Assembly: GCA_007136585.1 (NCBI GenBank)
Contig: SLGR01000214.1
Span: 1 to 6,090, forward strand
DNA from: Candidatus Sumerlaeota bacterium
GTDB taxonomy: Bacteria > CG03 > SLGR01
Length of the DNA: 6,090 nt
Direction of reading: 5' to 3'
Shown: positions 3-6,090 of the stretch, piece after piece
Layout of the letters: every line of letters starts with the position of its first letter
How positions within the stretch are numbered: the stretch's first letter is position 1
The notes under the pieces: model-generated
Seen by the model: the letters and a program-made list of their open reading frames with translations, nothing else
Told to the model about the DNA's origin: nothing
Databases searched by the model: none
Program-made: the position numbers and the translations under genes

Positions 3-263
3 CAGCCATTTCACATCCTCTATTATCGCCTTTACGTATTCCTCCTCTTCCTTCTCGGGGTTTGTATCGTCAAACCTCAAGGTGAAGGTTCCTCCGAAAT
101 CAGAGGCTATACCGTAGTTTAGAAACACGGATTTGGCATGTCCTATGTGAAGATACCCGTTCGGTTCGGGAGGAAACCGGGTAGCTACGCGCCCCCCGAA
201 ACGCCCGCTTTTTATATCAGCGTTTATTATTTCTCTTATAAAATCGGAACTTTTTTCATTCAT
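3..263 (-). CDS. glnS: Glutaminyl-tRNA synthetase, N-terminal fragment (gene runs off the left edge)
   Basis: This is the cytoplasmic class I aminoacyl-tRNA synthetase that charges tRNA-Gln with glutamine. Only the first 87 codons are in the window. The translation begins [18 protein letters not shown]. At about residues 29-40 it carries [18 protein letters not shown], which holds the class I HIGH ATP-binding signature in the form typical of Gln[13 protein letters not shown] and EYV..I..DVKWLG follow, both in the order found in the family. The [15 protein letters not shown] and RFDDTNP wording separates it from bacterial GluRS. The ATG at 263 is the first in-frame start before the conserved FIR.II segment, but no Shine-Dalgarno sequence lies before it (upstream reads ttaccttagtt). 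It is divergent from the gene at 426. Its presence implies direct glutaminylation, although a GatCAB route elsewhere in the genome cannot be excluded. Confidence 0.95.
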
Positions 264-1233: not shown

Positions 1234-2286
1234 GTGGAAATTAAAATAGCTTTTTATGATTTCAAGCCTTACGACGCCGAGTTCTTTGACAGGGTAAACA
1301 AAAAATTCGGTTACTCAATAAGTTACTTCAGGGAACGCCTCTCCCCTGATACCGCCGTGCTCAGCAGCGGACACCGGGCGGTCTGCGCATTTGTAAACGA
1401 CAATATAGATTCGCGCGTCATTGACCGCCTGAGCTCCGTGGGAGTAGAGCTTATAGCTCTTAGAAGCGCCGGGTACAATAACGTTGACCTTAAAGCCGCC
1501 TTCAGGAAAATACACGTTTTAAGGGTCCCTGAGTACTCGCCTCATGCCGTTGCCGAACATGCGGTTGCTCTCATGCTCTCGCTGAACCGAAAGACCCATA
1601 AATCCTACTACAGGACAAGGGACCACAATTTCAGCATTACCGGGTTAATGGGGTTCGATATGAACTCCAGAACCGCGGGAATAATCGGAACAGGAAAGAT
1701 CGGAAAGATCGCAGCCCGCATACTCGGCGGTTTCGGGATGAAGGTCCTTCTTTACGACCCTTTCCCTGATAAAGAATTTGCCTCAAACACCGGGTTCAGG
1801 TACCGCAGCCTTGAGTCTCTCTACTCTGAAAGTGATATAATCTCGCTCCACTGCCCTCTTAACCCCGACACCTACCGGATAATAGATTCCGGGGCCATAG
1901 ATAAGATGAAACCCGGGGTGATGATAATAAACACAGGACGAGGGAAACTCATAGATACAGCAGCGCTTATTGAAGGGCTTAACTCCGGGAAAGTGGGATC
2001 CGCGGGGCTTGACGTCTACGAAGAGGAAAGCGAGTATTTCTTTGAGGATTTTTCAGAAGAGATAATAAGCGACGAAACTCTGCTTAAGCTTCTAAACTAC
2101 CCCAACGTACTTGTGACTTCCCACCAGGGATTTTTCACACGCGAAGCAATGGGAAACATAGCAAATACGACCCTGAATAATATAAAAGGATACTTTGAAG
2201 AGTCTAATCTGGAAAACGAGATATGCTACCGCTGTGAATCAGAACCCTGCCGCCGCGGACACGAGGGCGGATGTTTCGCCAAGTGA
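1234..2286 (+). CDS. ldhA: NAD-dependent D-lactate dehydrogenase (fermentative type) with a Cys-rich C-terminal tail
   Basis: This 350-residue cytoplasmic enzyme should reduce pyruvate to D-lactate with NADH. RSAGYNNVD lies at residues 77-85 and the Rossmann motif IGTGKIG at 151-157. Asp175 (LLYDPF) fits NAD rather than NADP use. NTGRG supplies the substrate Arg236, DVYEEE the Glu265, and SHQGFF the acid/base His297. These match R235/E264/H296 of the Lactobacillus enzyme almost one for one. SHQGFFTREA and the nearby NTTLNN are typical of LdhA-like members rather than other 2-hydroxyacid dehydrogenases. I chose GTG 1234 because GGAGG (1224-1228) precedes it, because family similarity begins there (VEIKIAFYDFKPYD), and because the earlier in-frame ATG at 1093 would overlap the barrel gene by about 100 bp. 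The last 20 residues form a tail with C331, C334, C339 and C347, not part of the core fold. The stop overlaps the next gene by 16 bp. Confidence 0.9.
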   Translation: MEIKIAFYDFKPYDAEFFDRVNKKFGYSISYFRERLSPDTAVLSSGHRAVCAFVNDNIDSRVIDRLSSVGVELIALRSAGYNNVDLKAAFRKIHVLRVPEYSPHAVAEHAVALMLSLNRKTHKSYYRTRDHNFSITGLMGFDMNSRTAGIIGTGKIGKIAARILGGFGMKVLLYDPFPDKEFASNTGFRYRSLESLYSESDIISLHCPLNPDTYRIIDSGAIDKMKPGVMIINTGRGKLIDTAALIEGLNSGKVGSAGLDVYEEESEYFFEDFSEEIISDETLLKLLNYPNVLVTSHQGFFTREAMGNIANTTLNNIKGYFEESNLENEICYRCESEPCRRGHEGGCFAK

Positions 2287-2801
2287 TACTCTTTTCTCTC
2301 TTTTACGCTTTTCTCAAAATAGGCCTCTTTACCGTAGGAAGCGGTTACTCGATGCTTGTCCTTGCCCAGCATTACACCGTTAAACGTCACGGTTGGCTTA
2401 CCCTTGAAGAGTTTACCGATCTTGTCGCCGTATCCGAAGTGACCCCCGGTCCGATAATATTCAACCTTGCCACATTCTCAGGAACCAGGGTAGCAGGGCT
2501 TCCAGGAGCCGCCGCGGCTACCCTGGGCCTTCTTGTAATTCCCTTTACGCTCCTATACCTTATAGCAGCGGGGTACTCCGGGATAAAAGACCATCCCCTG
2601 GCCCAGAACCTTCTTAAGGTAATGCGTCCTCTGGCCCTCGGACTTATAGCGGCGGCTGTGATAAACCTCTTTAAAACAGCGGTTCCCGATCCCGTTTCGG
2701 CGGCGGCAGCTGTTGCGGCGGTACTTCTTGTAACCCTTTTTAAAATAAACCCGATTCACATAATCCTTGCCGGGATATTCGTCGCGGTTTTTATAAAATA
2801 A
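2271..2801 (+). CDS. chrA: ChrA-family (CHR domain) membrane transporter, short single-domain form
   Basis: The 176-residue integral membrane protein has a single CHR domain. FLKIGLFTVGSGYSML (residues 14-29) corresponds to the family FxKIGLFTFGGGYAM signature. HGWLTLEEFTDLVAVSEVTPGPI (40-62) carries the conserved WLT..EF.DL and TPGPI motifs. Further hydrophobic helices lie near 80-103, 117-134, 142-158 and 161-175. Characterised family members export chromate or are implicated in sulfate/chromate exchange, but many homologues have unknown substrates. Short-chain members usually occur as two adjacent half-genes; no partner is present here, so it may homodimerise or pair with a gene elsewhere. 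Its ATG lies inside the end of the lactate dehydrogenase gene (16-bp overlap), with gagggcgg just before it, suggesting translational coupling. Chromate itself as the natural substrate is doubtful. Family assignment is firm and substrate is not. Confidence 0.87.
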   Translation: MFRQVILFSLFYAFLKIGLFTVGSGYSMLVLAQHYTVKRHGWLTLEEFTDLVAVSEVTPGPIIFNLATFSGTRVAGLPGAAAATLGLLVIPFTLLYLIAAGYSGIKDHPLAQNLLKVMRPLALGLIAAAVINLFKTAVPDPVSAAAAVAAVLLVTLFKINPIHIILAGIFVAVFIK

Positions 2802-2907: not shown

Positions 2908-3327
2908 ATGAAAAACCTGTTTTTACTAAAAGCGGCGCTTATTACTGTGCTTATCGCGGGCGCCGCGGGAGTTTCCTCAATCGAAGCCGGAAGCCACGAG
3001 GTGACGATAGTATCGGTTGATACCGACAGGATACTGGAAGTCCATCCGGCTTTCCAGGAAGCCCAGGCCGAGTACCAGGCAAAGATGCAGGAAATGCAGC
3101 AGGAATTGGAAGGTATGCAGGAAGAAGAACAGATGATGGCCCAGCAGATGATGCAGCAGGAGCTCCAGGAACTCGGAACACGGCTTCAGTCTGAAGCCGA
3201 CGAGGCCATTATGGAAGATATCCGGGAAATCGCCCAGGAAAAAGGGTACGATTATGTCATAGATTCAAGCGCACTTCTTTCAGGCGGGCGGGATATCACC
3301 GAAGAGGTACTGGAGGCTTTAAGATAG
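2908..3327 (+). CDS. skp: OmpH/Skp-family periplasmic chaperone-like protein, unusually acidic
   Basis: The 139-residue protein has a signal peptide (residues 1 to about 27, with SIEA/GS near the likely cleavage). It then shows the OmpH/Skp layout. A beta-strand start VTIVSVDTDRILEVHPAFQEAQ (32-53) comes first, then a helical arm at about 50-95 rich in Gln, Glu and Met. The closing segment REIAQEKGYDYVIDSSALLSGGRDITEEVLEAL resembles the family IA.EKGYDLVID..DIT..VL.. signature. Skp is a trimeric periplasmic chaperone that holds unfolded outer-membrane proteins. The mature part is about 112 residues, shorter than the roughly 141 of E. coli Skp. By my count it has 27 acidic and 7 basic residues, whereas characterised Skp is basic. 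It has its own promoter and strong ribosome site and is followed after 35 bp by an acidic lipoprotein gene. Family membership is well supported; chaperone activity is inferred. Confidence 0.82.
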   Translation: MKNLFLLKAALITVLIAGAAGVSSIEAGSHEVTIVSVDTDRILEVHPAFQEAQAEYQAKMQEMQQELEGMQEEEQMMAQQMMQQELQELGTRLQSEADEAIMEDIREIAQEKGYDYVIDSSALLSGGRDITEEVLEALR

Positions 3328-3362: not shown

Positions 3363-3809
3363 ATCAGAACTCTCAAAGGAACAGGGATTGCCCTACTGGG
3401 AGCGGCGCTTTTCTTTGCCGCGGGATGCCGGGATGATTTTGAGGATCCGGGTGTTCCCGAAGCGGACCCCTACGCTGCCGAAGAAACTTTCCAGGAGCCG
3501 GCTTACGAGGAACCTCAACATGAAGCTGATACCATTTCACAGGATCAGTATATTGACGCGGTTGCCTGGATGCAGATCCTTCAGAGCAAGTACCAGGATG
3601 ATTTCAGCGCAGCTATAGAGGCCGGCGACAACGAGCGTGCCGAAGAATTACAAAGCGAATTTCAGGAAGAGTCCGATAAGATGCTTGACGATATGGGCAT
3701 AACTTCTGAAGACTTAAGCGAATTTGAACTTCATAACCCGGGTTTTCTGGAAGATCCGGAGGTTCAGCAGAGAATAATGCAGAGAGTCCAGGAGCTTTCC
3801 GAGGAATAA
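3363..3809 (+). CDS. Acidic lipoprotein with a DUF4168-like helical domain; non-standard ATC start or mutated ATG
   Basis: The open frame runs from before 3363 to the TAA at 3807-3809. Read from ATC 3363 it gives 148 residues. A charged start RTLK is followed by a hydrophobic core and lipobox FAAGC, making Cys22 the lipidated residue. Residues 23-60 are an acidic, proline-containing linker. Residues 61-148 are predicted helical. The pattern YIDAVAWMQILQSKY, an E/A/Q-rich helix, MGITSEDL, then LEDPEVQQRIMQRVQEL recalls DUF4168, where a helix, a G[IL]-x-x-E-[DE] turn and a DPE helix follow each other; this is recalled, not searched. The first standard in-frame ATG is 3570 (Met70), which would discard the lipobox and signal. 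It follows the ompH-like gene by 35 bp and precedes the cluster terminator. The likely location is the outer-membrane inner leaflet or the periplasm. Function is unknown. Confidence 0.72.
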   Translation: MRTLKGTGIALLGAALFFAAGCRDDFEDPGVPEADPYAAEETFQEPAYEEPQHEADTISQDQYIDAVAWMQILQSKYQDDFSAAIEAGDNERAEELQSEFQEESDKMLDDMGITSEDLSEFELHNPGFLEDPEVQQRIMQRVQELSEE

Positions 3810-3827
3810 ACCGTTTCTCCGGAGGAG

Positions 3828-3865
3828 AGCCGGCAGGCGCAAAAACGCGCGCCTGCCGGCTTTTT
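3828..3865 (+). terminator. Intrinsic terminator of the ompH-like/lipoprotein cluster
   Basis: A perfect 13-bp GC-rich stem (AGCCGGCAGGCGC at 3828-3840, complement at 3849-3861) encloses an 8-nt loop and is followed by TTTTTCATTTTT. It starts 18 bp after the lipoprotein stop. The convergent minus-strand gene ends at 3871, but no T-run follows the hairpin in that direction, so it works mainly on plus-strand transcripts. It could still cap the 3' end of the opposing mRNA. Confidence 0.92.
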
Positions 3866-3870
3866 CATTT

Positions 3871-4530
3871 TTACTCAGTAGCGTATTTCACCGAACACCC
3901 GTAGGGGCTTGTCACGGGAGTCTCTACCTCCTCCCCATCCATAGCCGAGTCAAGAGCCTTTCTCACATAATTGACCGCTCCTTCCACGTCGGCCTTATCA
4001 CTTGTAGGCGTATCATCTATTGCTCCCATATATATGAGTATCCCTTCAGGGTTTATAATAAACATTTCGGGGGTAGTCCTGGCGCGGTACCTCCTGCCGA
4101 TTTTTCCATCGGAATCAAGAAGTATATGGGTAGGTGAAGACCCGCGCGCGGCGGCCTCCTCTTTCCACCCGGAAGGTTCGAAATACCCCTGTTCCCCGGG
4201 AGCGGAAGAACATATTCCCAGCCATACGACCCCTCTTTCCATATACTCTTCCTGAAGAGACTGCATATTCCCTGTATCGTAATGCTTCACCACAAACGGG
4301 CACTCATAGTTTATCCACTCAAGAACCACGTAACTTCCGCGGTAATCCGAGAGTCTTACCTCTTCACCGTCAAGATCCGGAAGAATAAAATCCGGGGCAG
4401 GCTGACCCGGTGTGGGGTGCTCAATTGAAATAACCTCGGGAGACTCAGCCTCATCTTCCCGGGTACACCCCGAAACAACCGGTATAAGAAGCGCGGCCGC
4501 CGCGCAAAAAATCCATTTTCCTGTTCTCAT
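3871..4530 (-). CDS. Redoxin/thioredoxin-fold lipoprotein (peroxiredoxin-like, single active-site Cys)
   Basis: The 219-residue protein has a lipoprotein signal peptide (MRTGKWIFCAAAALLIPVVSGC, lipobox VVSGC, lipidated Cys22). An AhpC/TSA-Redoxin fold follows: PGQPAPDFILPDLDG at 41-55, LSDYRGSYVVLEWINYECPFVVKHY at 60-84, GVVWLGICSSAP near 100-111, and TTPEMFIINPEG at 152-163 with the probable cis-Pro154. The active-site position reads ECPFV with one Cys (Cys77) instead of CxxC. A second Cys in PYGCSVKY (Cys212) at the C terminus may act as partner. This arrangement is typical of the peroxiredoxin-like NxxCPFVxKHY group. The likely site of action is the periplasmic face of a membrane. GGGAGG (4537-4542) lies 6 nt before the ATG. 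The upstream DsbD/CcdA-like gene, 33 bp away, would be a natural electron donor. The substrate is unknown. Confidence 0.85.
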   Translation of the reverse strand: MRTGKWIFCAAAALLIPVVSGCTREDEAESPEVISIEHPTPGQPAPDFILPDLDGEEVRLSDYRGSYVVLEWINYECPFVVKHYDTGNMQSLQEEYMERGVVWLGICSSAPGEQGYFEPSGWKEEAAARGSSPTHILLDSDGKIGRRYRARTTPEMFIINPEGILIYMGAIDDTPTSDKADVEGAVNYVRKALDSAMDGEEVETPVTSPYGCSVKYATE

Positions 4531-4563: not shown

Positions 4564-5040
4564 CTACTTTATTATAACCTCAGCCTCCACCTCTAAAGCG
4601 CGCGGGATACTCAGGCCGGTTCCGGGAAACACAAGCACACCTTTAAATTTCTCTTCCCCGGGAATTAGGCCATCCATAAGCATACTTTTCCCGTACCCCC
4701 CTCCGGTAAACGCAGCAGCACACCCGGAACGCTGTACATTGTTGATATGCCTATAACATACAGAAGAGCCCTGAAAAAATCTGCTATACGCCTCACTTTA
4801 ACTCCGCGCCCGAAGATACAGACTGTAACGGCTAATACAGGATGCACACAGGGGGTCAGGTTCATGGCAACCCCGAGTATGAATACCTCCCGCAAAAAAC
4901 AGGGGCATATTCCCCTGTTCCGAAATAGCGCTGATTCCGGCTGGAGCCCCCAGGGCGGTACTTGAAAAGACCCGGATAAGAATAAAAACCGGAACAAAGA
5001 AAAGAAAAACCCGGGTTAAGTTATTTCTTTTAAGAATCAC
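4564..5040 (-). pseudogene. DsbD/CcdA-like thiol-disulfide reductant transporter, broken by two compensating frame changes
   Basis: The gene starts well: AAGGA 5 nt before GTG 5040, then a membrane-anchor segment (LTRVFLFFVPVFILIRVF) and GNMPLF. At a run of six T (4899-4894 read on the minus strand) the frame must move +1. It then reads REVFILGVAMNLTPCVHPVLAV and FFRALLYVIGISTMYSVPG, a good match to the first membrane helices of DsbD/CcdA including the NLTPCVxP cysteine motif. Near 4730-4720 the original frame returns with CAAAFTGGGYG, completing the family YSVLGV.AA.TGG.FG motif. An unrecognised tail ending EVEAEVIIK follows, with a stop at 4566-4564. Uninterrupted reading gives stops at 4798 (original frame) or 4665 (middle frame). 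Later helices with the second conserved Cys and the thioredoxin domain are missing. It is 33 bp upstream of the redoxin lipoprotein, which it would normally reduce. Real decay and assembly error are both possible. Confidence 0.68.
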
Positions 5041-5064: not shown

Positions 5065-5092
5065 ATTATCAGGGAGGGTAAGCGCCTGTCAA
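5065..5092 (-). promoter_or_regulatory. Strong sigma-70-like promoter for the DsbD-like/redoxin operon
   Basis: On the minus strand a perfect TTGACA (5092-5087) is followed after 16 bp by GATAAT (5070-5065, five of six bases). The overlapping TAATAT at 18 bp is an alternative. It lies 9 bp past the receptor terminator and 25 bp before the GTG at 5040, so the operon has its own start signal. Its integrity suggests the operon is still transcribed. Confidence 0.7.
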
Positions 5093-5100
5093 CTTAATTA

Positions 5101-5135
5101 AAAAAGCGGGGAGACGATGAGACGCCTCCCCGCTT
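5101..5135 (-). terminator. Intrinsic terminator of the TonB-dependent receptor gene
   Basis: AAGCGGGGAG and CTCCCCGCTT (5104-5113 and 5126-5135) form a perfect 10-bp stem with a 12-nt loop, in which a further CG/CG pairing is possible. Read on the minus strand the stem runs into TTTTT and then taatta. It lies 19 bp after the receptor stop codon. Confidence 0.88.
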
Positions 5136-5154
5136 CTATTCCGGAAAAAAGACC

Positions 5155-6090
5155 CTAAAAACTGTAGCTCAGCGTGCCAACAACCTTTCTCTCCAAGGGC
5201 GCGTGTTCAATCGGGTACTGAGAGAACTTCTCGTCGAAAAGATTGAAGGCAAATACCGAAACCTCCAGAGAATCATCCAGAACTGGTGGGATATACCCAA
5301 GTCTAAGGTTTACCAGGGTATATGCGTCCGACTTTCCTCCGCCGCCAAGGGTCTCCTTCCACTGATCGGGCCACTCGGTCTCATCACTGTAATGAAGGAA
5401 GAGGTTGGCGCTCAGACCGTGATTCAAGTTAAAATCAAGTCCGGCGTTAAAACGGTTCCGCGGGGTGGCCTCAAGCCTCTCGGATATACCAAACTCAGTC
5501 TCATAGACGTTTACCCAGGTGTAGTTTACAAAACCTCCGAGCCAGTCGGTCAGCATATACCTTACCTCAACCTCGGCCCCCACCGACTCGGCGTCCCCGG
5601 TATTGACAAAATCCATATATACAGTTTCGGGAACAGGCATCCCGGTTGCCGGGTCAATCAGGGGCGCTCCGCCTACCATCACCGGGTCCATACCGACCGG
5701 CATTATAGCCACAAAACCCTCCACGTTCATCAGGAATACATTGGTCAGGAACTCCAGCCGGTCTGAAATGATACCGCGGTACCCCAGCTCGTAGGATTCG
5801 GCAAGCTCGGGGTCCAAATCATCCCTACCCGAAACAAGAACAGTCGGCTGATAAAGCTCTGGGGGAACGGTTCCGAAAACATCCCCTTCCTGAAGAAACT
5901 CATAGAAATACTCTATGGTATTGGGGTTCCTGTAGGATGTGCCGTAAGTAAAACGGAGGTTATGCCTGTCATTCAGCAAATAAACAGCCGAGCCCCTTGT
6001 CGTAAGACGTCCTTCGGCTATATCATGGTAATCGTACCTGAGAGAGGCGTTTAAAAGAAGGCTGTCCGTAACACGGAAATCATCCTGAAG
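5155..6090 (-). CDS. TonB-dependent outer-membrane receptor, C-terminal part (gene enters from the right edge)
   Basis: The open frame is continuous from the window edge to the TAG at 5157-5155, giving 311 residues of the C-terminal barrel. The sequence has the alternating strand-and-loop character of a TonB receptor. It begins LQDDFRVTDSLLLNASLRYDYHD and continues with HNLRFTYGTSYRNPN, LAESYELGYRGIISDRLEFLTNVFLMN, VGAEVEVRYMLTDWLGGFVNYTW and TPRNRFNAGLDF. It ends FAFNLFDEKFSQYP...ERKVVGTLSYSF, whose terminal Phe fits an outer-membrane barrel signal. The plug domain and TonB box lie outside the window, and nothing here identifies the ligand. An internal TTG at 5979 can be mistaken for the start, but similarity clearly runs upstream of it. 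It is followed by its own terminator, so it is transcriptionally separate from the DsbD-like operon. Confidence 0.93.
   Translation of the reverse strand, partial: LQDDFRVTDSLLLNASLRYDYHDIAEGRLTTRGSAVYLLNDRHNLRFTYGTSYRNPNTIEYFYEFLQEGDVFGTVPPELYQPTVLVSGRDDLDPELAESYELGYRGIISDRLEFLTNVFLMNVEGFVAIMPVGMDPVMVGGAPLIDPATGMPVPETVYMDFVNTGDAESVGAEVEVRYMLTDWLGGFVNYTWVNVYETEFGISERLEATPRNRFNAGLDFNLNHGLSANLFLHYSDETEWPDQWKETLGGGGKSDAYTLVNLRLGYIPPVLDDSLEVSVFAFNLFDEKFSQYPIEHAPLERKVVGTLSYSF

Follow-up and report, generated by a model that had tools for sequence, protein, structure and literature searches.

Gene content of the window

The window analyzed in this study is a stretch of 6,090 nucleotides from contig SLGR01000214.1, which belongs to a 1.88-Mb MAG (G000) of 257 contigs that is 88% complete. 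On the minus strand, positions 4564-5040 hold what we interpret as a dsbD pseudogene remnant, which begins with a GTG at 5040 and runs to the former stop codon, a TAG at 4564-4566. DsbD is a thiol:disulfide interchange protein of the membrane that supplies electrons to secreted proteins. Downstream of the remnant, on the same strand, lies an intact dsbD partner gene encoding a redoxin of the AhpC/TSA family with a lipoprotein-like signal (3871-4530), which carries its own GGGAGG before its ATG.

The remnant also retains putative expression signals. A Shine-Dalgarno-like AAGGAG precedes the GTG at 5040, a promoter-like site (TTGACA-16-GATAAT, 11/12 matches) is present at 5065-5092 on the minus strand, and a strong terminator-like hairpin followed by T6 (5102-5137, minus strand) separates the remnant from a TonB receptor gene. 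The latter (5155-6090, minus strand) is truncated by the contig end and encodes the C-terminal part of a TonB-dependent receptor; its best subfamily is the heme/hemoglobin type, at a score below the cut-off. On the other side, a 17-bp terminator-like hairpin (3824-3865, plus strand) lies between the redoxin gene and a converging gene (3363-3809) that is short, acidic and lipoprotein-like and follows a gene for an OmpH/Skp-like small periplasmic protein (2908-3327, plus strand). Additionally, a lone gene for a short protein with a chromate-transporter (CHR) domain (2271-2801, plus strand) overlaps a 2-hydroxyacid dehydrogenase gene at the latter's end; short CHR proteins are usually paired, and this CHR domain is the only one found in the incomplete MAG. 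A gene start resembling glutaminyl-tRNA synthetase by eye (3-263, minus strand) is cut by the contig end.

An intact paralogue and uninterrupted relatives

A DNA search of the same genome returned a second, weaker match on another contig (C40), where an intact dsbD at 11086-13143 (minus strand) encodes a 685-aa protein with DsbD_TM, thioredoxin and DsbD_N domains, directly followed by a redoxin gene at 10392-11039 (minus strand). PF02683 was found in only two places in this genome, C40 and the window. In two genomes of the same family (G001 and G002), dsbD is complete in one uninterrupted frame and has the same C-terminal motif; in two genomes of the same order (G006 and G004), it is likewise uninterrupted and cut only by contig ends. 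Thus, in the orthologue comparison proposed in the preliminary description of this locus, no frame break was found in any intact relative examined. In this group, the intact DsbD proteins (L003:11086-13143, as well as L063, L064 and L024) share the order transmembrane, thioredoxin, DsbD_N, with the DsbD_N domain located C-terminally rather than N-terminally. A DNA search of 40 relatives yielded no syntenic counterpart to the region beyond G000, and no report of the locus was apparent in literature hit lists and the opening lines of abstracts.

DsbD motifs divided between two frames

The frame of GTG 5040 encounters a stop at 4798-4800 and reopens from 4797 to 4567; it contains a hydrophobic N-terminal anchor before this stop and CAAAFTGGGYG after it. 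The motifs REVFILGVAMNLTPCVHP and ALLYVIGIS instead lie in the +1 frame, which is open over 4668-5015 and spells VFILGVAMNLTPCVHPVLAVTV...RALLYVIGISTMYSVPGV. Within the +1 frame, positions 4719-4886 (minus strand) encode the first transmembrane region with its NLTPC cysteine and are 54% identical to residues 40-95 of the C40 DsbD. A profile built from close relatives matched this frame with an E value of 2.1e-23, and the PF02683 DsbD_TM profile did so with an E value of 9.8e-8 (32 bits vs. a gathering score of 27.1), covering only profile positions 5-66 of 219. The division of DsbD-like motifs between two frames, first described from the letters alone, is therefore borne out by the profile search that the same description had suggested.

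Alignment to the C40 copy locates two small indels on the minus strand. The first lies in GCGGGAGG (4886-4892) and is best read as 2 nt lost or 1 gained. At this position the relatives have AGLFLLGLALNLTPC, IGIFILGLALNLTPC or LIIIFLIGLALNLTPC, whereas in the window FFAG and VFILGVAMNLTPC fall in different frames; this comparison places the first shift within GCGGGAGG, at about 4892-4886, although the exact base is not fixable. The preliminary description had put the first switch at a T6 run (4894-4899), but the alignment prefers this position after FFAG, 2-8 nt downstream of the run, and slippage at T6 is therefore not favoured. The second indel (4719-4722) is 1 base absent between GV and AAAFTGG. 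As had been proposed, the shifts sum to zero, and mending them would give a product of about 158 residues; the mended frame has no stop.

Internal deletion and an authentic C-terminus

A tblastn comparison of the C40 DsbD with the window aligned residues 40-95 in the +1 frame, residues 94-108 in the original frame, and residues 660-682 again in that original frame. The YGKSM encoded at 4681-4695 (minus strand) is alignable to both C40 residues 104-108 and residues 644-648; therefore, about 540 codons (1.6 kb) are missing at this junction, where no long repeat was apparent by eye. No part of C40 residues 115-640 was found anywhere in the window. The second redox cysteine (APCIGPP, starting at C40 residue 167) lies in the deleted part, as does the CVPC motif of thioredoxin (within DWCVPC, starting at C40 residue 328), such that of the two membrane redox cysteines in helices 1 and 4 of the domain only that of NLTPC is kept. 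The other helices are likewise missing, as are both the thioredoxin and the DsbD_N domains. The 110-aa open frame should not be annotated as a short CcdA-like protein.

The last 38 or so codons of the remnant (4567-4680, minus strand; FKGVLVFPGTGLSIPRALEVEAE) align with the C-terminal tail of DsbD. Because the lone 23-residue pairwise match was weak, it was retested with a profile made from the C-termini of four intact relatives (the C40 copy, G006, G001 and G002). Against 167 six-frame peptides, the sole significant match was the frame 4567-4797 on the minus strand (E value of 1.5e-7, with the next at 3.9), which rejects an unrelated origin of the 3' tail. Of 5000 shuffled tails, a single one attained the observed score against the full C40 protein; with G006 or either C-terminus as the target, 5000 shuffles gave none. 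These codons are thus the true DsbD C-terminus, and the gene was gutted internally rather than cut at its end; the severe truncation described earlier holds for the missing later helices, but the gene retains its own 3' end and has lost its middle.

Origin of the split gene

Both ends of the remnant are homologous to an intact relative whose gene occupies one uninterrupted frame, and disabling lesions lie between them. With an intact copy elsewhere in the genome, the middle 1.6 kb gone and two small indels, the region is best explained by ordinary gene decay rather than a new mechanism, and we regard it with high confidence as a decaying dsbD paralogue. Decay was among the options raised in the preliminary description. 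Directly demonstrated here are the homology at each end, the loss of the middle, the division over two frames, the intact paralogue and the intact partner gene. Two observations count against a pseudogene: the three lesions together preserve the overall frame (net -3 nt, about -540 codons), for which the chance is about 1/9, and the second codon positions of the transmembrane segment are conserved.

Because the genome is a fragmented MAG, consensus errors might in principle account for the two small indels, in which case the true gene would be a short, internally deleted dsbD, in frame and still translated into about 158 residues, as the zero net shift and the stop-free mended frame would allow. 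This is unlikely, since nearby genes in the window align with their own Pfam families nearly full length and without frame breaks; furthermore, sequencing indels cannot explain the 1.6-kb loss, and the mended product, lacking the second redox cysteine and every soluble domain, would remain a dead DsbD. The short contig and fragmented assembly also invite the reading that the 1.6-kb gap is itself a chimera, with a second dsbD that is in fact complete having been misassembled. However, both flanks are only 54-57% identical to the C40 copy at the amino acid level, which shows that reads of the two copies were not mixed; the junction lacks any long repeat apparent by eye, and the frameshifts would be left unexplained, making a chimera very improbable.

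Programmed recoding, in which ribosomes would slip at T6 and then back to yield one 158-residue product, draws on the zero net shift and on the proximity of the run to the frame switch. A programmed frameshift would have a slip site and a split conserved among relatives, whereas in the intact relatives dsbD is read from a single open frame. Recoding at T6 was rejected, as the alignment to these relatives sets the switch past the run; a second slip would also be required without a slippery site, about 540 missing codons are beyond repair by frameshifting, and the resulting product would be incapable of DsbD chemistry. Recoding therefore has a next to negligible probability. It is extremely unlikely, if less so, that the gutted dsbD has been kept to control redoxin translation, acting as a leader or a short reading frame; if true, such control would explain the kept promoter-like site, the Shine-Dalgarno-like sequence and the overall frame despite three lesions.

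History of the dsbD-redoxin cassette

The window redoxin is 66% identical to that of the C40 cassette; the window thus carries a second dsbD-redoxin cassette, of which the redoxin gene alone is complete. Among the genomes of the phylum searched, the window-type redoxin had no second copy, and its nearest counterparts were those of G006 and C40. In the redoxin tree, the window protein is sister to these two (support of 100/97 for the three and 100/98 for C40 with G006); the second cassette thus predates the split of the C40 and G006 lineages or was acquired from a close relative.

The redoxin pair differs by 0.16/0.14/0.52 at the three codon positions, and this concentration at third positions is a pattern as for a gene under selection. 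The corresponding differences for the dsbD transmembrane segment are 0.46/0.16/0.50 (56 codons, small numbers). The conserved second positions suggest that decay was recent or that the segment was kept under some constraint; they would be consistent with a long function and a recent loss, and are indicative only.

Under the decay reading, the genome once had two dsbD-redoxin cassettes, of which that on C40 stayed intact, whereas the window dsbD lost about 540 middle codons and acquired two small indels while its redoxin remained intact under selection. The remnant would yield no working DsbD, and the C40 DsbD may now feed electrons to both redoxins. Since the promoter-like site still stands upstream at 5092-5065, the remnant has probably become a 5' leader for the redoxin gene, which is intact; most simply, transcription would still start at this site, and the redoxin mRNA would carry the remnant as a long leader. 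Beyond annotation the significance is slight: the split frame is accounted for, a redundant dsbD-redoxin cassette is revealed in the genome, and the locus is a small example of a duplicated gene pair in which one partner has outlived the other.

Comparison with known systems

The intact cassettes of C40 and G006 (contig PWMP01000010.1) resemble the window in gene order, orientation, homologous redoxin and short intergenic distance, but their dsbD is uninterrupted where that of the window is a remnant. Of DsbD itself (PF02683 DsbD_TM, thioredoxin and PF11412 DsbD_N), the remnant still shows the first transmembrane region, including the NLTPC cysteine, as well as the AAAFTGG stretch and the C-terminal tail; it differs in its two frame breaks and in lacking the roughly 540 codons for the second redox cysteine, the later helices, thioredoxin and DsbD_N. 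Overall, the remnant resembles bacterial pseudogenes formed by internal deletion and indels, in which a paralogue takes on frameshifting indels while an intact copy persists, and it differs from them only in its preserved net frame.
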